DNA from: Sinohyriopsis cumingii
Lineage: Eukaryota > Mollusca > Bivalvia > Unionida > Unionidae
DNA: 64,000 bases
Assembly: GCA_028554795.2 (NCBI GenBank)
Contig: CM068828.1
Coordinates: 18,364,436-18,428,435, forward strand
Direction of reading: 5' to 3'
Position 1 is the first letter of the stretch. Each line of letters starts with the position of its first letter. The notes beneath the pieces are model-generated. The model made no database searches and was not told the origin of the DNA. It saw nothing but the letters and a program-made list of their open reading frames with translations. A program made the position numbers and the translations under genes. Positions 4,233 to 54,984 of this stretch are shown piece by piece.

Positions 4233-4273
4233 CTATCTCTTTTCGAGAGATTGGAGTGGCCCTGAAAAGGGTT
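4233..4273 (-). promoter_or_regulatory. Histone-type 3' stem-loop and downstream element, gene A1
   Basis: On the minus strand a 16-nt element (4273-4258) reads AACCCTTTTCAGGGCC. The TTTC loop closed by T-A and the CCC/GGG stem match the histone mRNA 3' stem-loop consensus, although the two outermost pairs are lost. After 14 nt comes AAAAGAGATAG (4243-4233), which resembles the purine-rich histone downstream element recognised by U7 snRNA. It lies about 160 nt after the A1 stop codon. One of four such signals in element A. Confidence 0.72.
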
Positions 4274-4435
4274 TTTGGTTTTCTTCTTCTTCTAACTTCT
4301 CCACTTCTTCCACCATCCCCTTATCTTTCCCAAAATTCCTTTCTTCTTCCTCTTCTTCTCCTCCTCTGTTATCCAGTCAGGATGGCCCATCTCTCTAAAT
4401 TTCTGTTGGATCTTCATCCAGTTGTTATTTAATCT

Positions 4436-4876
4436 TTAAAACTCTAATTTCTTCTTCTTATTCTCTTCTTCCTTTCTCTCTTTGCTCGATTTTTCTTTTA
4501 TCTTCATCACTTCTACTTTCATTACCTCTCTAATTAGTTCTTCTGCTTTTATCAACTGGTTACAACCCCACTTTACGTACCACCAGTCAGTCCAATGAAA
4601 GCTATTTTCTAGGAAACTCCTGACTTCTATGATATGATCCAATGCTTCCTTTAAAGTACCTACTCTCACGTAAGGTGGGTCAATGAATCCTCTGATTCTT
4701 TCTACTTCTTCCTCAATCATTCCCCCTATTTGATCTTTTGCTACTCCAAGACTCTTCACATTGTTCAGGCCACCTTCAAATCTTCCTTCCTTATTCAATC
4801 TTTCTACTACATAAGTCCCATCCATGATCCAAAAATAGCTATGTCTCAAATCGTTAAATAATTTTGTCACCTCCAT
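4436..4876 (-). CDS. Accessory protein A1, unknown function
   Basis: A 146-residue ORF. I chose the ATG at 4876 because a TATA box (minus TATAAG, 4931-4926) lies about 50 nt upstream and is itself preceded by a regulatory module shared with A2 and A3. The frame is open further upstream, but only by reading through that module. The C-terminus is highly charged (Lys/Glu, probably coiled coil). No family is recognised. It is the leftmost of three tandem genes sharing promoter and terminator modules, and its mRNA is predicted to end at a histone-type stem-loop at 4258-4273. An early or host-interaction role is possible, but the sequence does not show it. Confidence 0.6.
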   Translation of the reverse strand: MEVTKLFNDLRHSYFWIMDGTYVVERLNKEGRFEGGLNNVKSLGVAKDQIGGMIEEEVERIRGFIDPPYVRVGTLKEALDHIIEVRSFLENSFHWTDWWYVKWGCNQLIKAEELIREVMKVEVMKIKEKSSKERKEEENKKKKLEF

Positions 4877-4933
4877 CTTCTTTGTGTATTCCTTAGAATG
4901 GTGCGAACGACTAATACTGCGGTTTCTTATAGT

Positions 4934-5030
4934 GAAAGCGCGGACGTGATGGAAAACATCCCCTAAAACAAAATTTATATTACCTAGATCATAACCAAAC
5001 AACGCGCGGACGTGAAGGAAAACATCCCCT
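4934..5030 (-). promoter_or_regulatory. Duplicated promoter module upstream of gene A1
   Basis: Two copies (4934-4963 and 5002-5030) of a block reading on the minus strand GGGGATGTTTTCC, then TCACGTCCGCGC, lie just upstream of the A1 TATA box. The same block sits directly upstream of the TATA region of A2 (5757-5785, with a degenerate second copy from 5825) and A3 (6622-6650). The ACGT core resembles a CRE half-site. Position and repetition argue for an upstream activating element; the factor is unknown. Confidence 0.6.
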
Positions 5031-5167
5031 ACTTTTCTCATTTCATATGATCTACTATCCACACACGCAAAGCATTAAAATGAAACCCTAATCTACTATT
5101 CACACGAACCAACTTAAGCTCTTACATAACCCAATAATCTACTATCCACACAAACGTACGTGAGCGC

Positions 5168-5168
<1 letters not shown>

Positions 5169-5200
<32 letters not shown>
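5169..5200. repeat. (AC)n microsatellite in element A
   Basis: A CA dinucleotide run with further CACA-rich sequence to about 5220, in the spacer between A1 and A2. A related CA-rich stretch occurs near 6025-6060 between A2 and A3, so it belongs to the duplicated intergenic unit. Confidence 0.85.
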
Positions 5201-5202
<2 letters not shown>

Positions 5203-5282
5203 AAAACACACACTCACACAAATAAAAAGAGTCAGTGTTTATATTCACACTACTCTACATACACACATTGGCAAATCGATTA

Positions 5283-5323
5283 CTATTTCTTTTCTAGAGT
5301 ATTGGTTAGCCCTGAAAAGGGCT
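5283..5323 (-). promoter_or_regulatory. Histone-type 3' stem-loop and downstream element, gene A2
   Basis: Minus-strand AGCCCTTTTCAGGGCT (5323-5308) forms a perfect 6-bp stem with a TTTC loop and fits the histone stem-loop consensus. It is flanked by AAACA on the 5' side and AACCA on the 3' side. Exactly 14 nt downstream is AAAAGAAATAG (5293-5283), a U7-type purine-rich element. The signal lies about 85 nt after the A2 stop codon. Confidence 0.8.
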
Positions 5324-5411
5324 GTTTGTTTTTGAACTCCAGTGACACCTGGATAATGATGGCACCTTCCAGGCCTGGCACCACACACACATCTTCTTCC
5401 CCAGTCTCTTT

Positions 5412-5693
5412 TCACTGTTTTTGGGGGGAGAGCAGAGGCGGGATAAGTGGCTTCAGAACCCCAATCTTCTGTCTCTGGGATTCTGAAATTTCCTCTCTCC
5501 TTTTTTCCTCTTCTTTGTTTCTTCTCTCCTCCTCTTCTTTGTTTCTTCTCTCCTCCTCTTCTTTGCTTCTTCTCTCCTCCTCTTTCATTCTTCCCTCTTC
5601 TACGATGGTCTCTGCAGCCAGCTCATTCACTATACGCCTGGCATATTCCAGGTGTACATGAAGTTCAAGCAGTTTAGCTAGTCTGGTGTTCAT
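5412..5693 (-). CDS. Accessory protein A2, coiled-coil, paralogue of A3
   Basis: A 93-residue ORF starting at the ATG at 5693; a TATA box (TATAAAT, 5753-5747) lies about 55 nt upstream, behind the shared module at 5757-5785. The N-terminus (RLAKLLELHVHLEYAR) matches the pattern of A3 (KLAKLNEAYVNLHRVR), so the two are paralogues. The middle is an EEERRNKE-type repeat, predicted to be a long charged coiled coil. The intergenic DNA on both sides is duplicated with a period of about 0.83 kb, which shows tandem gene duplication. Function unknown. Confidence 0.6.
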   Translation of the reverse strand: MNTRLAKLLELHVHLEYARRIVNELAAETIVEEGRMKEEERRSKEEEERRNKEEEERRNKEEEKRREEISESQRQKIGVLKPLIPPLLSPQKQ

Positions 5694-5756
5694 TCTGGTG
5701 GTGTTGATCAATCAACAAGGGTAGCTAGACTGCCGAACGATTTTTAATTTATACTG

Positions 5757-5785
5757 AAAGCGCGGACGTGATGGAAAACATCCCC
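5757..5785 (-). promoter_or_regulatory. Promoter module upstream of gene A2
   Basis: The same GGGGATGTTTTCC...TCACGTCCGCGC block as upstream of A1, located directly upstream of the A2 TATA box. A second, degenerate copy follows from about 5825. Confidence 0.58.
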
Positions 5786-6126
5786 TAAAACAAAATTGAT
5801 CCTACCTAGATCATAACCAAACAAACGCGCGGACCTAAAAGAAACACTCACTCACTTTTTATACTACCCATCACTATTCTAAAAAATTTTATTAAACAAA
5901 TAATATACTATCCACATACGCAAAGTAATCCAATCAAACCCCAAAACTATTCTCCCCACACGTCAAACAGCAAAAACAACATGATCATAATCTACTATCC
6001 ACATCAACGTACGTGAGCACTTACAAACACACAATCATATACACAAACACATACACTCACACTATAAAAAAAGAGTCAGTGTTTATATTCACACTACTCT
6101 ACCTACACACATTGGCAAATGGATTG

Positions 6127-6167
6127 CTATTTCTTTTCTAGAGTATTTGGTAGCCCTGAAAAGGGCG
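6127..6167 (-). promoter_or_regulatory. Histone-type 3' stem-loop and downstream element, gene A3
   Basis: Minus-strand CGCCCTTTTCAGGGCT (6167-6152) has a 5-bp perfect stem and the TTTC loop, followed by ACCAAA. The purine-rich element AAAAGAAATAG (6137-6127) follows after 14 nt, as in the other three copies. It starts about 35 nt after the A3 stop codon, the spacing normal for histone mRNAs. Confidence 0.78.
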
Positions 6168-6203
6168 GCTTTTTTTGTTTGTTTTTTTTGCTATGGCAAT
6201 CTT

Positions 6204-6560
6204 TTAGCTTCTAAGAATGCGATGTCCTCTGACGATAGACTTTCTGACGATATGTCTGCTTCTTCGGAAAGAGAAGAAGAACTCTTTGGTGTCGATACGA
6301 CAATCGACAAAGCCTCTGTCAGGTTCAGGTTGCTGCTGCTGCTGCTGTTGCTGCTCTCTCTGCTGTTTCTGAAGTCTGTACTTCTCTGTCCATTCTTCTT
6401 TCTCCCCGTTCACTTCTTCTCTGAAGAGCTCTTCTATCAGGTCTTCAGTGACTTTTAGCATTCTCACATTCTCTATCTCTTCTGGCTTCGGTATCAAACT
6501 GTGTCTGACCCTGTGCAAATTCACGTAGGCTTCGTTTAGCTTAGCTAGTTTGGAGCACAT
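6204..6560 (-). CDS. Accessory protein A3, Gln-rich coiled coil
   Basis: A 118-residue ORF from the ATG at 6560. The N-terminus is homologous to A2, the middle is acidic and helical, and a poly-Gln tract (about nine residues) precedes a basic, Arg-rich C-terminus. The shared promoter module lies at 6622-6650. The TATA box is weak (minus CTTTAAAG near 6614-6621). The gene ends close to a histone-type stem-loop. The basic tail could bind nucleic acid, but that is inference. Function unknown. Confidence 0.6.
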   Translation of the reverse strand: MCSKLAKLNEAYVNLHRVRHSLIPKPEEIENVRMLKVTEDLIEELFREEVNGEKEEWTEKYRLQKQQREQQQQQQQQPEPDRGFVDCRIDTKEFFFSFRRSRHIVRKSIVRGHRILRS

Positions 6561-6894
6561 CTTCGTAGGAGGATGAGTCGACAATGGATGGTTAAACTGG
6601 AGGCTACCCCGGCTTTAAAGTCAAAGCGCGGACGAGAGGGAAAACATCCCTCCACGGTTTTCGAGCCGGAACGTTCAATGAATGCCATGAGAGGGATAGT
6701 AACAAGTCAAAGAGCATGAATCAAGATTTCTATAGTCAAACAAACCACAAAGGCATTTTTATTCAAAACACAACATTTTTTATTCAAAATCACTTAACAC
6801 TAACAAACAACTCTAACATTTTTAACAATAATCCAACAATGTAACATCAAACATTTTGTTTCAAATGACGAACATTTTTTTTCCAACTCACACA
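6561..6894. other. AT-rich spacer with the A3 promoter module
   Basis: Holds the promoter module (6622-6650: minus GGGATGTTTTCCC, then TCGTCCGCGC) and then about 230 bp of AT-rich sequence with AACATTTTT-like repeats. No ORF or RNA gene is apparent. It separates the accessory cluster from the conserved morphogenesis genes. Confidence 0.6.
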
Positions 6895-7455
6895 TTATTT
6901 TGGACAAGGCTGACAACGTTGTGAATGAAATTGTGATTTCCACTGTTGGAAGTCATTAGACCATTGATGAACACTACGTTTCCTAGCTTGAGACAAAAGA
7001 TAAGCATAATGGTCACAAAACCATTGATCTACTTTCACATCGTTTCTAGAAGAAGAACGAGGATCAAAATGAGTCACTAAATGTTCTAAGGAATATCCCA
7101 GACTGCGATGATGCAGAAAATACACACAGTACTGTCCACACACCAAGGAATCTGTGCCTTGTAATTTCACATTATTGAATCGGGTGGTCTGAGCATTTCT
7201 TCTCATAAAGGCAATGATATCGTCTTCCAAAGGGGGCAATCCATACGAATCAAAAAATTCCACACATCCTTCTTGAGGAAAGTAGACGGCTACCCAGTGG
7301 GTTCCTGGGAGATGACTGTTGTCCGTGTTGATAACATAAGCTAGATGGTCTTGAGGTTTGCGATGAGGGAGTTCATCTTTTGCACATACGACAGGATTCC
7401 AAGAAGCCGTGTACGAACTGTGGTTCAAAAGGTAATAAAGTTCCCAGGTATCCAT
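6895..7455 (-). CDS. Adenain-like maturation cysteine protease
   Basis: A 186-residue intact ORF with the catalytic arrangement of adenovirus-type (C5) proteases: His53 in GTHWVAVYF, Asp69 in FFDSYG, Gln99, and Cys106 in VCGQYC, with a Gln-Cys spacing of seven. In Polintons this enzyme is thought to process capsid proteins during virion maturation. The ATG at 7455 is clear and the length is typical. It lies among the capsid genes, 25 nt after the stop of the next gene. No lesion is visible. Confidence 0.93.
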   Translation of the reverse strand: MDTWELYYLLNHSSYTASWNPVVCAKDELPHRKPQDHLAYVINTDNSHLPGTHWVAVYFPQEGCVEFFDSYGLPPLEDDIIAFMRRNAQTTRFNNVKLQGTDSLVCGQYCVYFLHHRSLGYSLEHLVTHFDPRSSSRNDVKVDQWFCDHYAYLLSQARKRSVHQWSNDFQQWKSQFHSQRCQPCPK

Positions 7456-7480
7456 GTTTTGTGTGGTTTTTTTTTCTTCT

Positions 7481-7882
7481 TCACAGGTAATAATAAGTCA
7501 TCAATTCGATCCTGACTTTTTGCTTGAAAATGTCTGACAAATAACCGTTTCTTCGCTTCGTCTCCCCACTCTGATTCAGGAGAGCTTCGATACGATGGAT
7601 CTCTTGAGTGGTTAATGGTGGACAAGAATGTTCACGCAAGTCTTTATACCACTGATGCAACACGACTTCGTCCGAGATGAGACTCCAAGCTTCGTCCAGA
7701 TACTCGTTCAATTTTTCTTCTTGACTCAACATTAGGCATTTATCGAGTTGAATTTGACTGGGATGATCGTTTTGACATCCATAGCAATCTTTCTTGATCA
7801 ATTCCGTCATTTTTTCGACCAAGTGTTTGGCAAAACAGGAGACTAAATGGGCTTCTTGTTCTGGCCATCTTGACTTCATCAT
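7481..7882 (-). CDS. Conserved Polinton small protein with CYGC and HPSQ motifs
   Basis: A 133-residue ORF beginning with two Met codons. It contains CYGCQNDHPSQ followed by a Cys further on, a possible zinc site, then acidic helical sequence. I recognise the motif arrangement as recurring in Polintons between protease and capsid genes, but know no function. The same frame continues upstream from an ATG at 7984, interrupted by a TAA at 7889-7891. The gene may therefore have lost a 31-residue N-terminal part to a nonsense change, or a separate short ORF may exist there. Confidence 0.72.
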   Translation of the reverse strand: MMKSRWPEQEAHLVSCFAKHLVEKMTELIKKDCYGCQNDHPSQIQLDKCLMLSQEEKLNEYLDEAWSLISDEVVLHQWYKDLREHSCPPLTTQEIHRIEALLNQSGETKRRNGYLSDIFKQKVRIELMTYYYL

Positions 7883-7989
7883 GACAACTTATTCGTCTTT
7901 GTCTTGAGATTCTTCTTCCCCGGTCTCCTCACATTCCATCTTCAAAGCTTCTCCACTAGGCAAAGAGGGATAACGGTCTTCCATGGCTT

Positions 7990-9311
7990 CTAATAGTCTA
8001 GAATGACTTCTCTCAAACTGTTGATTTCTATGGTATTGTCAAATTCTGCATACAGGAGGACGTTCACTGTGTGATCTGGAGGTGGATTTGCAAACTGAAG
8101 TTCCACACGAATTTGACCGATTTTATAGGGTGGAAATGTCCCTCGTCGCTGCTTTGGTCTGGAGTGAAATCAAAACCCCACAAAGCGTAGCCTCCTGCAT
8201 AATCGTCGTACGAAATACCGTGACTGGTGTTGGTTCCTAACTGTCCGGTGGCTTCGTACAGGGACAAGTACGATCTCAAATAATTCTTCGCGACACCAAA
8301 GTTGGGCTCAAAGTGTCGGGTACACAAGGTCTTGCCGTCGCGACTGACTTCGATCTTGGACACATTGTAATGTTGAAACTCAAAAGGATTTTGATCGTGG
8401 GTTCCGTTGAAGCCTGAATTCCTGACGATACCAACAATCAAACGCTTGGGTAACTGTCCTTGGAACAGATGATCTTCGATCATAGATCGCTGTCCAGCGG
8501 GAATGGTGAACGTTTTCACTTCTACGCGTCGTATCGGATACTTGGCGGTCGTTCTGCTCAACGTCTGACTGACGTCGTTTCCCACTTTAGGTAACACTTC
8601 CACACGACGCACGTAAAGTCGGGCTTCCTGAATGATGGTTTTGTATTCATTGGCATGGGCCATCAAATGGAAAGCGGCGCTGCTACGATTCAGTCTCAGA
8701 CGGATATCCACCCCGTTCAGCAAATACTTTTCTTGGAACCACATGTCCAAATGCAAACGATCCATCAGTTCTAAACTTCGCCCTTGCAGAATTTTCTTAC
8801 GACGGTCGTTAAACCCCACATTGTGAGGATTGTCATCTTCTGTCAGGACTGTGTCGCTAAACGTGCCTACACCTGCCGTGTCAGGTTTCCATACCACGCA
8901 AGCATCCAGATGAGTATTCTTGGCTTCTTTTCCGTACATCAAGAGATTTTCCAGGTAGGCACGATATGGGTAAGTATCCATGCTGCTGCTGACCAGTTTG
9001 TTATTCAAGTACAAGTCCACTTCGCTGAACAAGGAATGCATGAAATTGTTGACAGGAGCTACTCTAGCATCGCCTCCTGGATCGGTGTTGTCCGTTTTGA
9101 TCACTTTCACTTTCAAATACAGGTAACTGCTATTCAGATGGATGTAATCTTCGGGTTGTCCTTTGATTTCAAACTCGATGGGAGCGGAATCCGTCAAAGA
9201 GGAGACGGGATGAAATTCCACCCACTGGGATTCTTGCATGGTCATCATGGTGGGGGGCATGGCAAACAGATCCAGTTCCGACTTGGAACAGGCGCAAGAC
9301 TCTCGGTGCAT
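7990..9311 (-). pseudogene. Major capsid protein (double jelly-roll), frameshifted near 3' end
   Basis: The ORF starts at the ATG at 9311; an apparent earlier start at 9329 is TTG. The sequence shows the Polinton/adintovirus hexon-like major capsid protein, forming the pseudo-hexameric shell, with an N-terminal strand region around EFHPVSSLTDSAPIEFEI. The main frame stops at 8064. The conserved C-terminal strand continues in another frame to a stop at 7990, so a one-base frameshift lies at about 8129-8134. A sequencing indel cannot be excluded. An AT-rich GATAAAAAAG abuts the ATG. Confidence 0.9.
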
Positions 9312-9325
9312 CTTTTTTATCTTTC

Positions 9326-9751
9326 TCAATAATCGAAAACGTCTAAGTCTCGAACGGTTCTTCTTTTCTTGGCCTTTCTAGCTTTAGACGTGTGAAGTCT
9401 GGTGAAAGGATGTTTTCTTCGTCGTCTCTTTCTGCCTTGTCCTTGCTGAATGCTTGACTCGGTAGCATGCAGGGCATTTATAGGTGTGTCTCGTCGGCCC
9501 AAAAGGTCTTTGCCCGTTTGCAGCAAGACACTTTTGCCTGCCCTCATGAAGGCTTCTTTAGGATTTTGTTTGTCGATGATGACATTTTGGAGAAATTATT
9601 TGCCTTGTGTCAGTGCCGCATCTTTCAAGGCGTGCAATCCGCGTGTCACCATCGGTTTCAACACCGGGGCCACCGAACGAAAGGCCGATTTTAACATATC
9701 TCCTAAACCGTGTCCTCGCTGTCGAGCAACCCCTCGGTACACTGGATACAT
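9326..9751 (-). pseudogene. pVI-like minor capsid protein, one in-frame stop
   Basis: The frame runs from the ATG at 9751 to 9326 with a single TAA at 9596-9598. The N-terminus is YRGVARQRGHGLGDM, with a Gly-Leu-Gly-Asp motif and amphipathic helix resembling adenovirus pVI-like proteins of Polintons. The C-terminus is very basic (RKRRRRK and KKRR). It lies between the major and minor capsid genes, overlapping neither. A TATA box (9849-9842) is about 90 nt upstream, within the minor capsid gene. Confidence 0.75.
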
Positions 9752-9754
9752 GAC

Positions 9755-10687
9755 TTACGAATCGTGAGAGAACCGTTTCCGAAAATGGAGTTTCACCGTG
9801 ACTTTTCCTTTGGTGAATGGAATATTTTGTCCCAGATCTCCTTTTATAGCAATGTTGATCGTGTCCAAATACGACTTGCTGACAGGAAAATAGTGAGGAT
9901 GTACAAATTCGCGGTGAACGTGGTAAGTGTTTCCACCTTCCTCGTCAGTGACCGTGGCAGAATCCACTTTGAAAGGAATGACACGCAGTAACGGCACAGA
10001 GGTGTGTCCCACCACGTTGTACTCCACCACATCGGAGTACACAAACATCAAATTCAGTCCTTGGTTCAGTTCTACTGGGGCACGAAATAACTTGCTAAAA
10101 GACCCGTTGTCGTAAATGATTGGTAATTCGTTTTTCTTGAGCATGGCCATTCTCATGTCCATGTCTCCGCCCAACATGTCAAACAATTCTCGACAAAATA
10201 AAATGGACACGATTTTACTCCCGTCAAATTTCATCAAGAAGCGACGAGCTACTTTGTGGTATTCCATGGTGACACTTTTTTTGACACTTTCCAAAGCTTT
10301 CAGAAACACGACATTAAATCTGGAGGTAATGGTGCTGACCAAATGTTGACCACTAAAATAATAGCCTGGGGGAACGAACAAGTGATAGGTGGTATACTTT
10401 TGATTTTTTGTGCCAGGGGTTTTCTTGTCATATTTGCCATAGGTATCCAAGTAATGTTGCAATTGTTCGTCATGAACTTCCACATCAAAAAAGTTTTGAT
10501 TGGGAAGGACATTGAGGAACTGGGTCGGGTGAATGATTTCTACTAAAGCCACTTCCCAATGGGCTTCGTGATCTAATGGGATGGTCTGAGGTAATTTGGC
10601 CGTGTAACAGCACAACGTGTTCTTGGGAAACACCTCCATGGAACTGTCACTGGGTAAGGTTAAGTAAAATTGGTTTTGGTGACTCAT
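9755..10687 (-). CDS. Minor capsid (penton-type) protein
   Basis: A 310-residue intact ORF from a clear ATG at 10687. It matches the Polinton minor capsid/penton-like protein, with an N-terminal FYLTLPSDSSMEVFPKN segment and the phrase WEVALVEIIHPTQF typical of this family. A single jelly-roll penton at the capsid vertices is the known role. It overlaps no neighbour; the stop lies three bases from the pVI-like start. No lesion is visible. Confidence 0.88.
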   Translation of the reverse strand: MSHQNQFYLTLPSDSSMEVFPKNTLCCYTAKLPQTIPLDHEAHWEVALVEIIHPTQFLNVLPNQNFFDVEVHDEQLQHYLDTYGKYDKKTPGTKNQKYTTYHLFVPPGYYFSGQHLVSTITSRFNVVFLKALESVKKSVTMEYHKVARRFLMKFDGSKIVSILFCRELFDMLGGDMDMRMAMLKKNELPIIYDNGSFSKLFRAPVELNQGLNLMFVYSDVVEYNVVGHTSVPLLRVIPFKVDSATVTDEEGGNTYHVHREFVHPHYFPVSKSYLDTINIAIKGDLGQNIPFTKGKVTVKLHFRKRFSHDS

Positions 10688-10710
10688 AATTCCAGAGTTC
10701 TGTGGCTGTC

Positions 10711-11094
10711 CTAGGGGTTACTGGACGTCAGAGGCGTGTCTCCGCTCAAAATGGGGTTATTGTTGTTGTTGGAGTGGTGACTGGCACTGACACTGGACAC
10801 AAGGTTCCCGTGGTTCCCGTTCGAGGAGAATTTCAGGGAGGAATTGGGAAGCAGGTAACCGATGCAACTGCTCAATAAAATGGTCCACAATTGTTTGTCT
10901 CCTTGTTGCAAACTCAAATTGGCAATGGCTGCCCCAATGACACAATACACCACGAAGATTTGGCAGAAGAAGACGATTTGCGTTTTAGGCACACGTTCTC
11001 CACACCACACCCACAAGGGTTGTTTTTGTAAATCTTGCAGAGAAGAACTAGGTGAAGGAGTGGTCGACGTAGCTGCGTCTGTGTGAAAGGGCAT
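10711..11094 (-). CDS. Small membrane protein with two hydrophobic segments
   Basis: A 127-residue ORF from the ATG at 11094 (the GTG at 11103 is discounted). It has a Ser/Thr-rich N-terminus, then two predicted transmembrane segments (around VFFCQIFVVYCVIGAAIA and LWTILLSSCIGYLLP), and a Ser/Asn-rich tail. The pattern recurs in Polintons next to the minor capsid gene. Its TATA box (CTATAAAAAG, 11115-11106) lies inside the last codons of the upstream integrase. Role unknown, probably virion membrane or entry related. Confidence 0.75.
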   Translation of the reverse strand: MPFHTDAATSTTPSPSSSLQDLQKQPLWVWCGERVPKTQIVFFCQIFVVYCVIGAAIANLSLQQGDKQLWTILLSSCIGYLLPNSSLKFSSNGNHGNLVSSVSASHHSNNNNNPILSGDTPLTSSNP

Positions 11095-11099
11095 GATGG

Positions 11100-12204: not shown

Positions 12205-12218
12205 TTTGTGTTTGTGTG

Positions 12219-12836
12219 TTAATAAGTCATCCACTCTTGGAAGATGCTACTCTTTTTCTCTTGGGGTACTTTCTTGGATTGCAATGCTTTGCGTGTGCGA
12301 CCAGCAATAGGCGTCGCAGAGGAGGATGTCGGAACAGGGGATATCGGTTCTTGTTTCACTTCTGTCTTCACTTTCTTTTTCTCTTGTGATGAAGAAGGGG
12401 TGGTCATCATCTTTTTAATCCATCCAATTCTGGAGGTAGGTGGTGTTCTTAACTTGCGTACTTTTTCTGGTGGAGTTTGAAACCCTTCTTCTTCTTCTCC
12501 TTTTTCTGTCTTGGTCACTGGTAGTGGTGGTGGTGGTACTGGTGATGGTGCTGGACTTTTGATCAAGGTCTTAAAACCTTTCAGAGTGGGTAGAGCTGTT
12601 TCGTCTAAAGCTTTCTGGTGAATGAGTTGTAGTCGTTGCAAGAGTTGACCGTACTTTTGCGATTTTTCTGTTTCGGACAAATCTTGGCGATCCATCAAGG
12701 ACTGCAATTCGTGTTGTAACTGGGACATTTCGCTCAAATGGGGATTAGGAGGTAAATGCGGGGTGCGTTGTTCTTGTCAACGATGGTATTCCATCCATCG
12801 TTTGTAAGGCACTAAAGCTAGTTTTCGTCCTTCCAT
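12219..12836 (-). pseudogene. Polinton structural/accessory protein with ALVPYKRW motif, one in-frame stop
   Basis: The frame from the ATG at 12836 to 12219 contains one TGA at 12777-12779. The N-terminus GRKLALVPYKRWMEY is a motif I recognise from Polinton proteins of unknown role. It is followed by a coiled-coil region (about residues 40-80), a proline-rich linker and a basic tail. The 3' end overlaps the integrase 5' region by a few bases. A TATA-like box (GATAAAAAG) lies at about 12892-12883. Confidence 0.68.
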
Positions 12837-13290: not shown

Positions 13291-13338
13291 CTTCAGGAGC
13301 ACCAAAACACTGATACCCAACTTGGTCACACACATTTT

Positions 13339-14280: not shown

Positions 14281-14345
14281 GCTGACGTTGTGTGAGACAG
14301 ACGAAAAGGGTCTGAGGTTTTTATAGATTTTTTTGTGGAATGAAG

Positions 14346-15074
14346 TTAAGTCGAGGACGGACACGTGTACAGGACAGGCCCTCCGTCTTGGCACCAGTGG
14401 TGAAACAAGTGGGTACGAAATCGCAAATCATCGGGGGTCGTAGGTTTCAAATCGACGAGTAAATAGGCGTGTGGAGTTTGAGTGGCATCGTCGTACGCCT
14501 GAGTCAGCCAAGGCGTTCCTAACTGTTTGGCTAAGACTTGCACTTGCGATTTATCTCGAGGGCTTTTAAACAAGACCACGTAATGCGCATTGAGACTGAT
14601 GGTGCGATGGGCTTTACTTTGTTGAAACAAATTTTGAGTGATGTAAACGACACTGGCATTACGATGATGCCCTTTGCGCGTGAACCACAGTTTAATTTCT
14701 TCTTCGTCTTCTTCTAACATGTCGTCGAAAATGACCAAATGGGTTTGACGGGAGTCAGAAACGATGCCGTCGTCTTCTTTAGGAATGCCTTCCACAAACA
14801 CGATGGAATCGTCTTGACTTTCTCGCAAGAGGCTGTACGCCGATTGCCACTCTTTGTAACACCACACGATGCGCTGAGGTGGTCGATCGATCAAATGATG
14901 TTTATGTTCGATCAAACGTTTGACGAATTCGGTTTTGCCTGAACCGCTGGGTCCAACAATGAGCATGTTAAAGGGATGGCGAAGATACAAAGCCTCCCAA
15001 CTGGCACGATCTAAGTGTTCGTCGATGACTTTGACAGTAGAAGAAGAGGGAGCAGAGACAGCAGAGGTAGCCAT
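14346..15074 (-). CDS. FtsK/HerA-type genome packaging ATPase
   Basis: A 242-residue intact ORF from the ATG at 15074. Walker A is GPSGSGKT (residues 41-48), Walker B is HLVIFDDML, followed by an A32-like region with VVYITQNLFQQ. This is the ATPase that pumps DNA into the capsid in Polintons and related viruses. A TATA box (TATATAAAC, 15128-15120) is about 50 nt upstream. Its 3' end overlaps the open 5' extension of the next gene but not its chosen start. Confidence 0.95.
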   Translation of the reverse strand: MATSAVSAPSSSTVKVIDEHLDRASWEALYLRHPFNMLIVGPSGSGKTEFVKRLIEHKHHLIDRPPQRIVWCYKEWQSAYSLLRESQDDSIVFVEGIPKEDDGIVSDSRQTHLVIFDDMLEEDEEEIKLWFTRKGHHRNASVVYITQNLFQQSKAHRTISLNAHYVVLFKSPRDKSQVQVLAKQLGTPWLTQAYDDATQTPHAYLLVDLKPTTPDDLRFRTHLFHHWCQDGGPVLYTCPSST

Positions 15075-15157
15075 AGTGTCAGGAATGTCACTTGTGACAC
15101 GAAAACAAACAAGACGAGAGTTTATATACTTTTTTCAGGACACGTTTATTGAATGTT

Positions 15158-15490
15158 TCAAATATGAACAACACGAAAGACAAAAATACATAAAAGCCAA
15201 ATAGTTATGTACAGGAATAAAAAACACATCAAAACAATCAAAGTGGAATATAAACAAGTCTCTGTACAACATGTTTTGGGTAACCAAGATGTCCTAGGGA
15301 CAGTGTGTAATGTTCTTACAGTCTCTACATGAGGTATTGTCACACAAGTGTCCTCCCGGAATGACCTTTCAGGAATGTCCATGACAGTCCTGTCCTGAAG
15401 CGAGTGGTTGTTCTCGGTGACGGGTTCTTCTGGCACTGTCACTAACACAGGTTGAAAAGTAACTTTTTTCCTTGAACAATTCTCGTGCAT
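15158..15490 (-). CDS. Single-pass membrane protein, unknown
   Basis: A 110-residue ORF from the ATG at 15490, with a polar Thr/Val-rich N-terminal part and a strongly hydrophobic C-terminal segment (STLIVLMCFLFLYITIWLL), so it is predicted to be tail-anchored. It overlaps the 3' part of the next gene in another frame by about 120 nt, and I am less sure of its start. No family recognised. Confidence 0.5.
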   Translation of the reverse strand: MHENCSRKKVTFQPVLVTVPEEPVTENNHSLQDRTVMDIPERSFREDTCVTIPHVETVRTLHTVPRTSWLPKTCCTETCLYSTLIVLMCFLFLYITIWLLCIFVFRVVHI

Positions 15491-15710
15491 ACTGGGCCAC
15501 TTCTTGGGTCCAAGCCTCAAAACCCCCCTTTTTCCAGTCATGAACATCTGTCCAGTGGGGGTGTAAGTCACAAGCTACACACACATCGTCATACACGTCT
15601 TCGGTAGCTAAAAGTTGACGAATCTTTTTTTCCCGTTGAGGTCGAGAAGTATCCAGATGAAAACGCAAGGCTTTGAGCAAAAGGAGTCTTTCGTGACCAT
15701 TTAAGGCCAT
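15369..15710 (-). CDS. Small protein with Cys-containing helical region, unknown
   Basis: A 113-residue ORF whose ATG at 15710 overlaps the stop codon of the preceding gene (stop 15701-15703), suggesting coupled expression. It starts MALNGHERLLLLKALRFHL and has a mid-segment with CVACDLHPHW. Residues after about 88 overlap the membrane-protein ORF in another frame, so the true C-terminus may be shorter. Function unknown. Confidence 0.55.
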   Translation of the reverse strand: MALNGHERLLLLKALRFHLDTSRPQREKKIRQLLATEDVYDDVCVACDLHPHWTDVHDWKKGGFEAWTQEVAQYARELFKEKSYFSTCVSDSARRTRHREQPLASGQDCHGHS

Positions 15711-15913
15711 TGAGGTGGTAAGTACTGATCGTAAAGAGTCCACAAGGAATCGGCTGGTAAACGAAATCCCAGAAAACAAGTCACTAAGACACACACCACT
15801 TGTCGACCCAAATTGAATGGATACAGTTCTTGTAATAATCGATGGTAATGATCCACGGTTTGAATATGGTCATTGAGTTCCTTCCACGGAATCTGTTCAG
15901 TTACATGTGACAT
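15701..15913 (-). CDS. Small protein upstream of the overlapping pair, unknown
   Basis: A 70-residue ORF. The first ATG is at 15925, but the TATA box (CTATAAAAAC, 15943-15934) places transcription start near 15910-15915. I therefore mark the second ATG at 15913, with low certainty. It contains a hydrophobic stretch (VVCVLVTCFLGF). It ends in a four-base-class overlap with the next gene. No family recognised. Confidence 0.5.
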   Translation of the reverse strand: MSHVTEQIPWKELNDHIQTVDHYHRLLQELYPFNLGRQVVCVLVTCFLGFRLPADSLWTLYDQYLPPQWP

Positions 15914-16061
15914 AAGTCGTGGCATGGCAGCCTGTTTTTATAGTCTCTTTGTTTCGGAAACAATACACGTACTTTCTAGCCAGAGATCTTCGTTCTCGGT
16001 GATGTCCAACATTTCACTCCTAGCCAGTCTGGTTTCTTCTTCAACGACATGGTAAGTTACT

Positions 16062-16697
16062 TTAATGTCTCGGTCCCACTAAGGGTAAGTAATGACAATT
16101 CGGTGACCATCGAGCATGTTCTAGGTAGGCCGAATCTTGCGGTTCCCAGTGGTGAAGTGACACACCGCAACTGAAGCACTTGATTTTATCCCCTTCACAC
16201 AAGTAGTAAAATCCGGCTCTGGCTAATTCTTCGGGGGTCGGTCCTCCCAGATACTTAGGCCATTTTCCTTCGAACGATTGAAGACGATTTTCAAAGTCGC
16301 AGTATTCCGACAAACGCACAGGGAACGAATATTCGTCTTTCACAGGTTCGTTTCGATGAGGGATGAGTGACATGGATAGGAGTTTGCTCAGGGCTGGATG
16401 ACATCCGTAGGGAGGTAGACGTGAAGGTAGACATTCACCTTTAAAACGAAACCCAGTAAAGTGTCCAAGAGGACGAGTGGCATCGCTTTCGCATCCCTCA
16501 GGTTTGACACGCACAGCATCACTTTCCATGATAGGGGCAGGGAGAACAAAGTTCCCATGATGCGTTACGGAATCGCTAAGGTCACAGCGTACAGCATCGT
16601 TCCCATCGCAAGGCTCACAATCGCATTCCACTTCAGCGCCCCCAAACTTGAATTGTGCCCTTCTGAACTTGTTGTGTGTTTCTCTGAAAGTATTCAT
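16062..16697 (-). CDS. BIR-domain (inhibitor-of-apoptosis-like) protein
   Basis: A 211-residue ORF from the ATG at 16697, with a TATA box (TATATAAAAAGG, 16762-16751) about 55 nt upstream. Residues about 133-204 form one BIR zinc domain: CFSC, then His in the YLEHARWSPNC segment and its final Cys. BIR proteins bind caspases or IAP antagonists and block apoptosis, or regulate the cell cycle. The N-terminal 120 residues are unlike known IAPs and contain Cys-rich, Asp-rich stretches. There is no RING. After the stop, another frame stays open for about 40 codons to a stop inside the next TATA box, so a 3' frameshift is possible. Probably captured from a host IAP. Confidence 0.88.
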   Translation of the reverse strand: MNTFRETHNKFRRAQFKFGGAEVECDCEPCDGNDAVRCDLSDSVTHHGNFVLPAPIMESDAVRVKPEGCESDATRPLGHFTGFRFKGECLPSRLPPYGCHPALSKLLSMSLIPHRNEPVKDEYSFPVRLSEYCDFENRLQSFEGKWPKYLGGPTPEELARAGFYYLCEGDKIKCFSCGVSLHHWEPQDSAYLEHARWSPNCHYLPLVGPRH

Positions 16698-16729
16698 CTT
16701 GTTCGCTTGGTCTTGGTAGTCACAATGAA

Positions 16730-19700
16730 CTATCGATCTTGCCTAGGGTTCCTTTTTATATACAGACCAACACCGACTTGTCCATACGGTAAGGTGAAAT
16801 GATTGGGAAGTCGCACTCGCTTCTGGTACACGATTTGATAGACTTTTTCCAAGGGTCGACTGACGATGTGGTGAGTGGGTAAACGTACAATTTTGTTGGG
16901 TTGATAGGTGGTGACTTTAAAGTGTTCATCCTCTTCAGATTGCAAGGCTTCTTTCAATACCCCAAAGTTGACCACACGACTGGTACGATAATTCAGAGTC
17001 AATCCTTTCACTTTACACTTCGAGTGCACTTCTCCTTGTGGGTCCCGGTATTCGTAGCCGTAATTTTTTGGACCGCCAAAGACGAAACTGAGAATCTTGT
17101 CGTCGGGATGCTCGTCTGTCCAGGCTCCTAAACGGTCTCCTTCGATGTCAGGGTGCTGTTGACTCGGGTGATGGATGTAAATGCAACTGTCCGTGTCAAA
17201 GTACAGGACGCGTTCCCCTAACAGTTCTAAAGCTTCGTACAATTTTAAGCGAGCATGAACTGTCACATAAGCCGCAATGATGATATTTCCAAAAGGGTCG
17301 TCTTGTACAAAGTCCAGATCTTCTTCGTAATTGACTAAGATCAAATCCTCGCGAACGACGTCCACGTGTTTCATGAATTTGGTTTTGTCGTGAATCATCT
17401 GGAAGTAACGGGAAGGTTCTGTCAAATACTCCGTCCTGGGTAAACACGGACGTTGTGCCATTTTACCCCACAAGCAACTTAACATCACTTTGGCAAACGA
17501 TCGCCTGCCTTCGTTTTTCTCGATGTGATCTAAAGAGATGTCTTCTTGTGCCCGGTATTTCTCTTTGAATTTTATTTGGTCTTCGGGAGTGTGACACCAG
17601 GAAGGATAGCCACTGGCTTCTTGTTTCCGTTTCAAAAAGGCATCCACGTAGTCGGCGAAAATGCCTTTCTGCGTGGGGTCACCCTTGTGGTATTGTTGTG
17701 TCTTGGGAAAGTGACAAATTTCGTACACTTCTAACAGTTGATATCCCATGTCCAGAGCTTTGAGCAATTCTACGCTGACCCGTTCTTCCTGGGTGTGCTG
17801 ACAAGGTTGGTCTTGGTTGCACGTTTCGGCACAAGTACAGCACAAAGGAAACATCAGTTTGCCTTGGCAATGGTGAGGTAACACGGGATGGTACAAGTCC
17901 TTTGGAGGCAAAACTTTGCACTTGATCAAGCCTTCGTATTGTCGAATGTTTTTCAGGTCGATGTGTTCTGTGAACAATTCTGGGTGCCCTGCAGGAAAGC
18001 GACAATATTTGCACACGTAGGGATACAGCGAACACACGTCCAAGTATTTGATTTCTTCTCCTTTCTCTTCGTCGGCTTGGTACAGCAAACAGGTGGCATT
18101 GGTCCTTCCTCCGTACAAACTATCCCTCGGGTTCAGCGGGTCCATGAACTGGTAACTTTCCACGAGGCGTTTAAACTCGGGATCGGTTTTCAAACGGTGA
18201 TCGTACTCGTGTTCCCACATTTCCACCACTTGGTATCCTTCCTGTTCTAACTTTAGGCGTCGCTGACAAGTGGCCTGGTACAAGTCTTCCATGGTTCGTT
18301 GTAAAAACTGATTTTTAGTGTCACGGTCAGGGTAACAGACAGGACATCCGTGAAATAAGCAGCCGTTAAACTCGTACACGATCTTGGGGTTTTCTAAGTC
18401 CCAGCCATCGACCGAATGCGTTCCGATGGTCTTTTCGCCTCCTCCGTTGCGGGCATGCTGAATCCACTTGTCTTCCTTGTCGCACAAGTAATGTAACCAG
18501 CGTAGGGCTTTGACCGAGTATTGACGTTTGAAATAGTTGGTCGTTTGAGGACTGATGACAGCTACGGTGTTTTCAGGCATGACCCCTCCGTGTTCCATGA
18601 ACAGTTCTCGAAATTTTCCACAGCAACGTCGTAAAATGTCCACGTCGTAACGACAATACTTTAACATTTCTTCCCGAAAGTCGAAAGGGTCGAAGGCGTG
18701 AGCCTGGTACCAAGCGTAGAAAGCTTCTCGTTGTTCGGTACGCATGTTGTCAGGGTGGTAATAGTGAGCCTCAGGCAAATGGGGTAGAACGGCGTGTTGA
18801 TTGGCTTCCGTATTGAAAAAGTGTGGAAAGTATCCTTTAGCCATTTCTGTCATTCCAAATGTTTTAGGTATTCGACTCAAAGGCATGGCTAAGTAACTCA
18901 TCGAATCTTTAAACTGCACTTGTCCCACTTGCATGAAAATGATTTTGGCTCCGTTCAAAGTGACTTTAGGACGTTCGGTGCCTTGTTCCGTATAGTATCT
19001 GAGAAGAAACTGTCCATCGTATCCGGAGAAATTGTGAGCCATCACTGTAGCATGACGATGACAATCTCCGTAACGTTCGATGTCCTCTTGGCTCCACGTC
19101 TTGTCGATGGGGTCTAAGACCCATTGGGCAAAATCGGCTAGCGTGTTCGGTCCCCGAAAGATTTTTTCACGTCCTTCAGGAATCTTGCTGCAGTGAGGGC
19201 AATGACTGAAGATAGGTTCCTGAATGCACTTCTCGCACGCTCGATGAGCCACGCAGAAATTAGGAACGTGAATGCCAGTCTCTTGCATGCATTCGGTGAC
19301 AAATGTGACATTTTTTCTTTCCTGAACATACGTGTGCCTTGGCATTATTGGTACGTATGCCTTGTCCACACGTAGGGCACAATCTCAGCAGTTGACAAGC
19401 ACATTTCTGCTGTGAACCTTGCGTCTTCAAATGTTGTTGGTAACAGGTAGGGCTGACAAACGTGCGCAGACAAGTTGAACAATGCACTGGCTCTTCGCTC
19501 AGACAGGGTGGAGAGGCCAAACATCCTGAGCATTTCGATCCACAATGCTTGTGTTGCTCTCGATTGTTATAACCATAGTCACATTTCTCACAGTAATAGC
19601 CGTATCCCAGGAATGCAGTGATACTGGTAATGGTATCGAAATGGTCATCGTGATAATAGACATGAATGTATTTTCCATCCTTAAAGTCTTTCCCTCGAAA

Positions 19701-20139
19701 CAACAGAGGCCCGCGCATTTCTTGAGGGTGCACTTTCAAGGTGTAGCGTGGAGCTAGGACATCTTGCAATGTTTGCATTTCAGGAATGCCACAGGGTGTG
19801 TCTGTGGACAGGCCGGCTTGTTGCAACAGGAGTTCTTCTTCACTTTGTTGTTTGGCTCGGTCGGATCGTTGAATAGTTTTCCAGGCTCTTTTCCATTCTA
19901 CCGTGTCATTCTTGTTAGCAATGGTTCGTCCCACCATGATGGCCCTGGCTAAACACATCTGGTCTTGAGGGTTGTGAAATCGGACGACTCTTTTTGGTAC
20001 TGCGAAGGTCGTTCACCAATAAGACATTTTTGCGGCCAGTCCCTTGAGGAGGAGAGACGTGGGTCATGTCCAGTGTAGCTTTTCCATCGGTGATGTCAAA
20101 CTGGTCATTGGATTGTTGTACGTGTTGAATCTTGTCCAT
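16730..20139 (-). pseudogene. Protein-primed family B DNA polymerase, two frameshifts
   Basis: The large frame 19369-16730 holds the exonuclease motif AHNFSGYDGQF, ExoIII YCRYDVDIL, polymerase motif DVCSLYP, the B motif near CLWGKMAQRP, and YFDTDS with the catalytic Asp pair. The upstream part lies in two other frames: 19260-19958 has a Cys/His zinc-finger-rich region, and the first part runs from the ATG at 20139. Frameshifts therefore lie near 20001-20010 and 19310-19335. In the second region, the expected ExoI Asp before the Glu reads Val. The enzyme replicates Polinton DNA from a terminal protein. The shifts could be mutations or homopolymer errors (an A6 run is present). Confidence 0.93.
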
Positions 20140-20157
20140 GACTTTGGAAGCAGTCAA

Positions 20158-20592
20158 TTATGCAGGGCTGCTAAACTCGATCCAAACAGGGGATTTCAAA
20201 CCGTTGTGTTGTATGGAAGGTCTCAAGCGATCGTCTTCTTTGGGTTGACATTGTCGTTTGAGTGTGGTGAGCAAAGAATCCCACACCCCGGTGATGAACC
20301 CTTTTGCTTTCTCTAACGGTACTTCAGCCTTGAAATCTTTAAACTTCACCGTGTATTTGTAAGCCGTGGTAGAGGAGCGCTTTTCCGTCTCTCGAATGGA
20401 ATAGTACTTTTCTGGGTTGACTGAGGGTGGTGAACTTTGTTTAGAGGGTTCGGATTCTGGTTCACTCATGTCCTCTTCAAAATCACTGGCATGAATTTGT
20501 GCCAAGACTTCAGCCCTGGTACGAGGCGATAGATCACGTTTCTGCCTCTTACTTTCTTCGTCTTTCTTCTCAAATGAATGGGATCGTTTCAT
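20158..20592 (-). CDS. Charged protein preceding the polymerase, unknown
   Basis: A 144-residue intact ORF from the ATG at 20592, with a TATA box (TATAAATT, 20646-20639) about 50 nt upstream. The N-terminus is a basic, bipartite NLS-like KKDEESKRQKR, followed by an acidic Ser/Pro-rich region and a C-terminal folded part (KYTVKFKDFKAEVPLEKAK). The stop is about 20 nt before the polymerase ATG, so the two may be co-transcribed. Not recognised; a nuclear replication accessory role is possible. Confidence 0.65.
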   Translation of the reverse strand: MKRSHSFEKKDEESKRQKRDLSPRTRAEVLAQIHASDFEEDMSEPESEPSKQSSPPSVNPEKYYSIRETEKRSSTTAYKYTVKFKDFKAEVPLEKAKGFITGVWDSLLTTLKRQCQPKEDDRLRPSIQHNGLKSPVWIEFSSPA

Positions 20593-20638
20593 CTTGAGTG
20601 TAAAACGTCAAATGACTCAAGTTTAAACAGCATGGACT

Positions 20639-20673
20639 AATTTATAGTCATGGCAGACCAGCGTATATAAAAG
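20639..20673. promoter_or_regulatory. Back-to-back TATA boxes of a divergent promoter
   Basis: A minus-strand TATAAATT (20646-20639) serves the 20592 gene and a plus-strand TATATAAAAG (20664-20673) serves the CCHC gene. Only 17 bp separate them, so the two transcription units share one compact bidirectional promoter. Confidence 0.75.
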
Positions 20674-20726
20674 GGTGTGTGTCTTGTCCTTTCACTATTC
20701 ATTTCACTCTCAAACCGAGCACAACG

Positions 20727-21191
20727 ATGGAAGAGACTACCCAGATGGAACGTTTCATCAGAGCTTTGCGAGGGGTCATTAGAAAATTCTCTTCAGACCA
20801 GCCGACGGACTACTCTCCTTCCTTTCGAGATAAAAGTCAAGATATTTGCTATATCTGTCAGAAGAAAGGGCATTGGTCTTCAGAGTGTCCAGACCGTCAA
20901 AATAGAAAAAAGAGGTTAGAAAAGACAAAAGTCAAGATACCTGTTATTATTGTCAAGAAAAAGGACATTGGTCTCCAGATTGCCCTAAGAAACAAGGAGC
21001 AAGAAGAGAGGGATTCTGGAGAGGAAGAAGAAAAGGAAGAAAGTAGACAATTCTATTTACAAGAGGCAAAGAAAAAGAAACAGGAGAAGAAAAGAAGAAG
21101 GGAAGAAAGTGAGGAGGAAGAGGAGGTAAAGACTGTGACGGTGAAGAAATTGAAAAAACAGAGCAAACAAAGAAACAGAAGAAGTCTATAA
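20727..21191 (+). CDS. CCHC zinc-knuckle protein with charged tail
   Basis: A 154-residue ORF from the ATG at 20727, about 55 nt after a TATA box. One CCHC knuckle (CYICQKKGHWSSECP) lies at about residues 42-56. A second, nearly identical knuckle (CYYCQEKGHWSPDCP) is encoded about 75 nt further on in a different frame. The two were evidently tandem duplicates, now separated by a frameshift in an A-rich run near 20907-20920. The annotated frame then runs into a long Glu/Lys-rich tail. Zinc knuckles bind single-stranded nucleic acid. A poly(A) signal AATAAA follows at about 21249. Confidence 0.7.
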   Translation: MEETTQMERFIRALRGVIRKFSSDQPTDYSPSFRDKSQDICYICQKKGHWSSECPDRQNRKKRLEKTKVKIPVIIVKKKDIGLQIALRNKEQEERDSGEEEEKEESRQFYLQEAKKKKQEKKRRREESEEEEEVKTVTVKKLKKQSKQRNRRSL

Positions 21192-21248
21192 ACTTTTTAA
21201 AGTGCTCTGTTGTGAATTGTGAATTGGATTGTAACTACTGATAAAAGA

Positions 21249-21254
21249 ATAAAT
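21249..21254 (+). terminator. Poly(A) signal of the CCHC gene
   Basis: AATAAA about 60 nt after the CCHC stop codon. It contrasts with the histone-type ends of four minus-strand genes of the same element. Confidence 0.55.
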
Positions 21255-21381
21255 TAGGTATAAAAAGGTAAGTGTCTTTGAGTTTTGATTTTAAATAAGA
21301 AATTACACTCACGCACTCATATACACGTACAATAGGGGTAAAATGGTTTGGGTTTTTTTTGAGTTATTGGCAATTGAAAGT

Positions 21382-21422
21382 CTATCTCTTTTCGAGAGAA
21401 GTGGGTGACCCTGAAAAGGGCC
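21382..21422 (-). promoter_or_regulatory. Histone-type 3' stem-loop and downstream element, gene A4
   Basis: Minus-strand GGCCCTTTTCAGGGTC (21422-21407) is flanked by CCAAA and ACCCA, a near-perfect metazoan histone stem-loop with its normal flanks. Exactly 14 nt downstream is AAAAGAGATAG (21392-21382), whose AAAAGAG is complementary to the CUCUUUU of U7 snRNA. It begins about 25 nt after the A4 stop codon. This is the best of the four copies, and it lies 15 kb from the other three. Confidence 0.85.
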
Positions 21423-54960: not shown

Positions 54961-54984
54961 AATTAAATCATGGACAAATAAATA

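Follow-up and report, generated by a model that had tools for sequence, protein, structure and literature searches.

At least five terminal accessory genes in a family of Polinton elements from the bivalve Sinohyriopsis cumingii very probably end in working 3'-end signals of the host's replication-dependent histone type. Replication-dependent histone mRNAs end in a 3' stem-loop that is bound by SLBP, and a downstream element in their precursors pairs with U7 snRNA. To our knowledge, this stem-loop is used in animals by replication-dependent histone messages only. The occurrence of such ends on several non-histone genes suggests that the Polinton borrows the host histone-mRNA machinery.

Element A is a Polinton with two kinds of 3'-end signal

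The window analyzed here, a 64,000-nt stretch of the host genome, contains a Polinton, element A, at 3855..22823 on the minus strand. It encodes a type B DNA polymerase, an rve integrase and an A32-like packaging ATPase, has a weak adenain-like protease match, and carries terminal inverted repeats (for example 3909-4035 and 22687-22813, 127 nt and 100% complementary in a repeat search) inside a 6-bp target-site duplication, TACGAT. In all these features element A resembles the Polintons, or Mavericks, that bivalves and other animals carry; it is unlike them in that its terminal accessory genes have histone-type 3' ends.

Four accessory genes lie on the minus strand: gene 1 (4436..4876; 146 aa in the window copy), gene 2 (5412..5693; 93 aa, charged), gene 3 (6204..6560; 118 aa, its stop codon 36 nt from the hairpin) and gene 4 (21448..22002; interrupted by two in-frame stops in the window copy). 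Gene 5 (22222..22461, plus strand; 79 aa, pI 11.4) is divergent from gene 4. By contrast, the CCHC zinc-knuckle gene (20679..21191, plus strand) is followed by an ordinary poly(A) signal, AATAAA at 21248 on the plus strand, just as the first-pass annotation of this DNA had stated. Outside the accessory genes, at least some genes of element A keep ordinary AATAAA signals.

Four hairpins in the window share one architecture

The sequence CCCTTTTCAGGG occurs four times, on the minus strand only (4260-4271, 5310-5321, 6154-6165 and 21409-21420), and allowing one mismatch returns the same four sites and no more, compared with a mean of 0.22 and a maximum of 1 in shuffled sequence. These sites form the 16-nt stem-loops at 4258..4273, 5308..5323, 6152..6167 and 21407..21422 (sites 1 to 4, minus strand). 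The earlier claim that each is followed exactly 14 nt further on by a purine-rich AAAAGA(G/A)ATAG holds at all four: AAAAGAGATAG at 4233..4243 (site 1) and 21382..21392 (site 4), and AAAAGAAATAG at 5283..5293 (site 2) and 6127..6137 (site 3), all on the minus strand. Two of the four stems have the full 6 pairs (sites 2 and 4, the former with an A-U closing pair), site 3 has 5 and the decayed site 1 has 4. Under a rule formulated after the motif was seen, a hairpin with AAAAG[AG] at 13-15 nt, element A contains four instances vs a mean of 0.013 and a maximum of 1 in 1000 dinucleotide shuffles. Hairpins counted without the purine element are not unusual in element A (6 observed, shuffle mean 5.0).

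We searched bases 1-30000 of the window with the Rfam Histone3 model (RF00032, gathering score 34 bits). Scoring the four sites in this way, which the first-pass annotation had proposed as a check, favored its reading at two of them, site 4 (31.0 bits, 21382-21427, E 3e-5) and site 2 (29.2 bits, 5282-5328, E 1.4e-4). Site 3 scored 20.9 bits (6127-6172, E 0.18), which alone is not significant, and site 1 was absent from the matches at E<=10. None of the four sites reached the cut-off (best 31.0 bits). The four sites are not independent, since sites 2 and 3 lie inside a 109-nt block that is present twice, at 93% identity, and a 63-nt block is common to all four. Pair counts on a five-sequence alignment gave no covariation support, the observed value being reached in 391 of 500 shuffles.

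The element family carries the signal after at least five genes

A Histone3 search of the 2.9-Gb host genome yielded at least 75 matches above the gathering cut-off among those listed, of which 69 were examined; among 14 control genomes, one had a match below the cut-off and none had one above it. Each of the 69 examined matches is preceded by accessory-gene sequence from relatives of element A (gene 5 in 26 cases, gene 4 in 22 and gene 1 in 21), and none of these 69 follows a histone gene. Among the matches listed, element copies score up to 45.6 bits. The prediction that related Polintons carry the motif after accessory genes was therefore borne out, with every examined match above the Rfam cut-off. 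The ends of element A align to all 69 loci at a mean identity of 81.5%.

Spacing is regular in these copies. The hairpin begins 18-27 nt past the stop codon at 51 of 65 sites with an ORF of at least 35 aa and at 43 of 51 with an ORF of at least 70 aa; at four of the 69 main sites no ORF of 35 aa ends within 120 nt. The purine element stands at 14 nt in 66 of the 69 main sites, a figure to be read with the fact that these sites were picked by the Histone3 model, whose downstream part may favor this spacing. A further 74 neighboring hairpins were found in these loci: among the 56 that could be assigned to a gene the purine element is at 14 nt in 48, at 15 nt in 2 and absent in 6, and among the 18 without assignment it is at 14 nt in 8 and absent in 10. 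A 6-pair stem is present in 54 of 63 hairpins from the first 30 loci.

Sites were also located by their flanks only, with the motif masked (22 for gene 5, 26 for gene 4). At gene 5, a perfect GGCCCTTTTCAGGGCC is present in 21 of 22 sites and AAAAGA in 19 of 22, and hairpin identity is 1.00, vs 0.87 in the coding part and 0.76 at +41 to +80. At gene 4, 16 of 26 hairpins are perfect, two more are loop variants and 24 of 26 sites have AAAAGA; hairpin identity here (0.93) is barely above that of the coding part (0.89).

The copy of element A in the window is partly decayed, with weakened stems, the stops in gene 4 and a missing gene 5 site. In relatives, gene 4 is uninterrupted (182-194 aa) in 25 other copies and the histone-type end of gene 5 is present. 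The gene 1 ORF measures 182 aa in copy L051, with 21 nt between its end and the hairpin, and 204 aa in copy L064, with 18 nt. The first-pass annotation had counted four accessory genes with such ends. Each of its four sites does follow an ORF, but the number was too low: five or more genes of this family have an end of this type, and in the window the fifth site is gone and other sites are lost in part. The proteins of genes 4 and 5 are under purifying selection, with median dN/dS values of 0.39 (25 copies) and 0.12 (40 copies), respectively. Only two homologues of gene 5 were found in the protein collection. No Pfam histone match was obtained for genes 1-4 or for the ORF of the diverged Polinton contig L038 described below, nor was a histone motif found upstream of the Histone3 matches in any of the 69 regions. 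Genes 2 and 3 show no likeness detectable by BLASTP as proteins, though their flanks are duplicates.

The signals match those of host histone genes

The host genes for H3, H4, H2B, H2A and H1 are arranged in tandem units, each about 8.3 kb long. Their 16-nt hairpin reads GGCCCTTTT(T/C/A)AGGGCC (GGTCCTTTTCAGGACC in H1), stands 27-38 nt past the stop codon, scores 35.0-39.4 bits with Histone3 and is followed by a purine element, 14 nt on for H3, H4 and H2B and 15 nt on for H2A and H1. The element genes thus share with replication-dependent histone genes (RF00032 and the host units) the type of 16-nt stem-loop, the purine element at 14-15 nt, a short distance from stop codon to hairpin and an uninterrupted ORF. 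They differ in that their proteins are not histones and in that they sit in a mobile element, other genes of which have AATAAA signals.

The Rfam U7 model (RF00066) had no match in the host genome, and it also found none in the control genomes. Mammalian U7 pairs through CUCUUU with an AAAGAG core, according to PMC7026596. This core occurs at window sites 1 and 4 and in many copies of genes 1, 4 and 5.

A diverged Polinton and viral contigs

A search of genome contigs returned 10 loci (L038-L047), and the Rfam search covered seven of these (L038-L044). The motif was found in one, L038, a Polinton contig whose pPolB is 36% identical to that of element A. Its Histone3 match (35.8 bits, above the cut-off) lies 28 nt past the stop of a C2H2 zinc-finger ORF, has AAAAGAGAT at 14 nt from the hairpin and aligns without gaps to the window sites over 65 columns; an AATAAA follows 70 nt past the hairpin. 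This one contig points to a second Polinton lineage with a histone-type end. No Histone3 match was found in L039-L044, six pPolB contigs that are all short or cut, or in the second Polinton of the window. A custom model, R1, recovered only its five training sites in the window and L032-L047, the next best score being 17 bits.

Among IMG/VR viral contigs, a single pPolB query and a capsid alignment each returned no relatives, and a pPolB alignment returned six distant loci (L032-L037). The pattern CCCTTTTCAGGGN{8,22}AAAAGA matched 31 stretches, about the number estimated for chance, and 23 of these form 5-6 pairs. As a control for spacing, the 14-nt position of the purine element is seen in none of the 31 (L003 comes nearest, at 13 nt), whereas 66 of the 69 main sites of the element family have it. 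The most histone-like hairpin among the 31, in L006, was rejected, as its purine element lies at 6 nt and it gave no match to Histone3. GGCYCTTWTCAGRGCCAC had no match in IMG/VR.

Proposed processing of the element transcripts and alternative readings

If the element pre-mRNA follows the known route of histone mRNA maturation, its hairpin would be recognized by SLBP, its purine element would base-pair with the U7 snRNP, and CPSF73 would cleave in the interval, leaving an intronless message that lacks poly(A). The pre-mRNA features predicted to direct this are the 16-nt stem-loop, usually 18-27 nt past the stop, and AAAAGA 14 nt beyond. Histone-type processing of element genes by SLBP and U7, as proposed in the first-pass annotation, is thus supported by the sequence data. 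It could benefit the element by limiting expression to S phase, or making it peak then, at a time that permits replication of the element, and by aiding export of intronless nuclear transcripts. On balance, we lean towards the broader view that terminal accessory genes give rise to pseudo-histone mRNAs, tied to host S phase via SLBP and U7, in two or more deeply diverged lineages of animal Polintons.

The most serious alternative, a variant of the reading above and not its opposite, is that the ends are dual or conditional, the histone signal acting in dividing cells only and a downstream AATAAA otherwise giving a polyadenylated mRNA. AATAAA or ATTAAA occurs within 300 nt downstream of 31 of the 69 main sites, L038 has its AATAAA nearby, and misprocessed histone pre-mRNA is itself polyadenylated downstream, as PMC6303110 describes. 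Against this stand the 38 main sites with no such signal within 300 nt, and window sites 2 and 4, which have no downstream AATAAA up to 4433 and 17576, respectively. We regard conditional ends as possible, if doubtful. A missing poly(A) signal is in any case not special to the hairpin genes, because the polymerase and capsid ORFs of element A also have no AATAAA or ATTAAA soon after their stops.

It is improbable that the motif is a passive relic, a histone 3' end captured with a gene by an ancestor, spread by duplication and copying and now functionless. The duplicated blocks around the window sites and the decay of the window copy are what such a history would leave; however, the gene 5 hairpin is perfect in nearly all flank-located sites while silent sites of gene 5 vary widely (median dS 0.99; third-position differences with a median of 0.34 among 17 equally long copies), the DNA farther downstream is much less conserved, and the Polinton with the 36% identical pPolB has the motif after an unrelated gene. 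A DNA-level element for recombination, replication or packaging that resembles the histone hairpin by chance is less credible still: hairpin sites do lie near both ends of element A, but the motif is strand-specific, keeps its usual distance from stop codons, and matches the histone genes of the same host in both hairpin and purine element at 14 nt. Chance hairpins are the least plausible source of all, for although loose hairpins are about as common in shuffled sequence, those with a downstream element far exceed expectation and are conserved across copies.

Implications and prior reports

If the broader view above holds, the accessory transcripts would be the first non-histone mRNAs of any metazoan to end naturally in a histone stem-loop, and no other mobile element is known to exploit the histone 3'-end system. 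Conserved histone-type ends on non-histone genes of a mobile element would break the rule that the stem-loop is for histones only. Such genes would allow the role of the 3' end by itself in S-phase timing, export and decay to be tested in a natural setting, and would reveal by what means a DNA transposon or virus links its genes to replication of the host.

A literature search joining the histone stem-loop with Polintons found no paper within its coverage, which includes few subscription journals, and the words histone, stem-loop and polyadenylation are absent from one Maverick survey (PMC8097293) by word search. A review on histone genes in DNA viruses (PMC9145170) has no "stem-loop", "SLBP" or "polyadenyl" by the same kind of search. 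The viruses described there resemble element A as mobile or viral genomes that use histone-related sequence; they take the histone protein, whereas element A takes only the RNA 3'-end signal. As poly(A)-selected RNA-seq would miss transcripts of this kind, the activity of such elements may be underestimated.

Histone-type 3' ends in element A

Element A (3855-22823) is a Polinton. Inverted repeats of 127 nt (100%) and 115 nt (99%) lie at its ends, flanked by the 6-bp direct repeat TACGAT, and its genes include an rve integrase, an A32-like packaging ATPase and a DNA polymerase of type B (PF03175, E 2.5e-37). It also carries a BIR-domain (inhibitor-of-apoptosis) gene (16062-16697, minus strand; PF00653, E 3.9e-22) and an adenain-like ORF with a weak match, below the Pfam cut-off. 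The closest species-named animal proteins are from bivalves, with Ostrea, Saccostrea and Crassostrea matching the polymerase and Mercenaria and oysters the probable capsid protein, which points to a bivalve as the probable host.

As the first-pass annotation claimed, four minus-strand hairpins (sites 1-4) are present in this element, and at all four AAAAGA(G/A)ATAG begins 14 nt past the 16-nt hairpin. Their shared sequence CCCTTTTCAGGG, at 4260, 5310, 6154 and 21409, is confined to these four places in the 64 kb; allowing one mismatch adds none (shuffle mean 0.22). Loose hairpins are common by chance when no purine element is required (6 observed vs a shuffle mean of 5.0); significance therefore rests on hairpin and purine element together, which occur four times in element A against an average of 0.013 and a maximum of 1 in 1000 shuffles, under a rule drawn up once the motif had been seen. 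Sites 1-4 form 4, 6, 5 and 6 base pairs respectively, and a 109-nt duplicated block (93%) contains sites 2 and 3. In the covariance-model check proposed for these hairpins, the Rfam model Histone3 (RF00032) listed three of the four, at 31.0, 29.2 and 20.9 bits (E 3e-5, 1.4e-4 and 0.18), and none of the four reached the gathering score of 34.

Hairpin genes occupy both ends of the element: gene 4 lies close to the right repeat, and genes 1-3 adjoin the left one. Gene 5 (22222-22461, plus strand), divergent from gene 4, has no hairpin in the window copy. The AATAAA noted for the CCHC gene is present at 21248 on the plus strand; others follow the protease ORF (6784 and 6763) or lie beside an ORF ending at 15158 (15150). 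No AATAAA occurs soon after the stops of the polymerase and capsid ORFs, so the contrast between hairpin and poly(A)-signal genes is incomplete. Within 4927-6658 (minus strand), genes 1-3 are each preceded by a shared repeat, GGGATGTTTTCC..CGTCCGCGCTTT, and some of its copies have TATA-like boxes nearby, so each cassette seems to have been duplicated together with its promoter and 3' end. A CRE-like site, TGACGTCA, lies upstream of gene 4 (22064-22071, minus strand).

Related elements in the host genome

A Histone3 search of the 2.9-Gb host genome gave at least 75 matches, all above the cut-off and the best at 45.6 bits among the matches listed; just 75 of 589,472 first-look candidates were scored, so the list gives no full count of sites and no unbiased order among them. 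Only 1 of 14 control genomes had a match, below the cut-off. We examined 69 of the 75, leaving out the six weakest (34.5-36.5 bits); host histone genes also match the model, yet lie outside these 69 loci. The first-pass annotation proposed a search for the motif after accessory ORFs of related Polintons; all 69 loci align to the ends of element A (mean identity 81.5%). Judged by protein motifs within 700 nt upstream, the preceding gene is gene 5 in 26 loci, gene 4 in 22 and gene 1 in 21, with no histone motif at any of the 69. The gene 1 motifs are loose; all 21 of its loci align to the left end of element A over 1410-2010 bases. At 65 sites an ORF of 35 aa or more stops no further than 120 nt from the hairpin (no such ORF at the other 4), and in 51 of the 65 the stop lies 18-27 nt before it. 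Neither AATAAA nor ATTAAA occurs in the 300 nt after 38 of the 69 sites.

AAAAG[AG] stands at 14 nt in 66 of these 69 sites, which were chosen by a model that itself spans the purine-element stretch. Among neighbouring hairpins in the same loci, 48 of the 56 assigned to a gene have it at 14 nt, 2 at 15 nt and 6 lack it; of the 18 unassigned ones, 8 have it at 14 nt and 10 lack it. As a control we took 31 viral-contig stretches in which the hairpin core is followed 8-22 nt later by AAAAGA; 23 had 5-6 pairs, and in none of these did the purine element stand at 14 nt.

Conservation at sites not chosen by the motif

Because the loci had been chosen by the motif, conservation was measured at the neighbouring site, found via its flanks with the hairpin masked. 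In loci fetched for gene 4, the gene 5 hairpin is GGCCCTTTTCAGGGCC in 21 of 22 and AAAAGA is intact in 19; identity is 1.00 in the hairpin, 0.97 in the preceding 15 nt, 0.87 in the coding region and 0.76 from +41 to +80. Among the 26 gene 5 loci, the gene 4 hairpin is perfect in 16, carries the host's H3/H4 loop in 2 and is wholly or largely lost in 2, with AAAAGA intact in 24. Its identity is 0.93 vs 0.89 for coding sequence, so the excess of conservation is small. Median dN/dS indicates strong purifying selection on gene 5 (0.12, 40 copies) and moderate selection on gene 4 (0.39, 25 copies). In copies from the same set of loci (L048-L077, L100-L138) gene 5 has a median dS of about 0.99 vs 0.10 for gene 4, a gap for which sub-families, recombination and the choice of intact copies are candidate causes.

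Within the first 30 loci, the closing pair is A-U in 7/7 copies of genes 2 and 3 and G-C in 41/44 copies of genes 1, 4 and 5 (7 unassigned sites left out), probably a single event in which a double change preserved pairing. Covariation statistics on a five-sequence alignment gave nothing above shuffles.

Comparison with host histone genes

An H4 query of the host genome gave 114 matches, most of which lie in tandem units about 8.3 kb long, and histone 3' ends were taken from one fully read unit with five histone genes (L098). Its hairpins are GGCCCTTTTTAGGGCC (H3 and H4), GGCCCTTTTCAGGGCC (H2B), GGCCCTTTTAAGGGCC (H2A) and GGTCCTTTTCAGGACC (H1), 27-38 nt past the stop. AAAAGA follows at 14 nt (H3, H4, H2B) or 15 nt (H1), and AAAAGG at 15 nt (H2A); for H4 the script placed the first AAAAG at 3 nt, and TAGAAAAGAT at 14 nt was read by eye. 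Genes 2 and 3 of the element have the same CTAGAAAAGA as H3, H4, H2B and H1. In hairpin, purine element and spacing alike, the element's signal thus closely resembles that of its host. Complete host histone matches to Histone3 score 35.0-39.4 bits, under the best element copies.

As described in PMC7026596, CUCUUU of U7 pairs with an AAAGAG core in histone pre-mRNA, and CPSF73 cuts between the hairpin and the downstream element. The histone-type arrangement, taken with this established processing, predicts SLBP- and U7-dependent cleavage of element transcripts, which would yield mRNAs without poly(A). The element might thereby gain S-phase-linked expression and a means of exporting its intronless transcripts from the nucleus. 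Rfam gave no U7 match in the host genome, nor did the same search in any control genome. A full-text search of open-licence papers for the histone stem-loop together with Polintons found no paper, and broader searches of such papers turned up nothing we recognised as relevant; we therefore judge the RNA signal itself to be known and its biological setting to be new.

Other Polintons

The family evidence above comes from one host genome, and that for a second lineage from one contig. Ten genome contigs related by pPolB were found; of the seven searched with Rfam, one (L038) gave a Histone3 match, which at 35.8 bits exceeds the cut-off, and the other six have none. Nor is there any in window bases 30001-64000, which hold a second Polinton-like element of another lineage (52801-63003, plus strand) with a double jelly-roll (56806-58224, PF21738) and an rve match below the cut-off (52801-53514). 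L038 is an 8.9 kb contig within a bacterial MAG, evidently a contamination, and no other Histone3 match occurs in that MAG. The hairpin lies 28 nt past the stop of an 89-aa C2H2 zinc-finger ORF, close to the contig end and its CCCATTGTC-rich repeats. This gene is unrelated, and the polymerases of L038 and the window are 36% identical over the best segment; the site aligns gap-free with the window sites over 65 columns, with its purine element at 14 nt. TGACGTCA also occurs upstream of the zinc-finger ORF (about 7870-7960, plus strand). An unexpected cargo of L038, not far from this zinc-finger gene and its histone-type 3' end, is a TATA-binding-protein-like ORF (7189-7695, minus strand; PF00352, E 1.2e-27).
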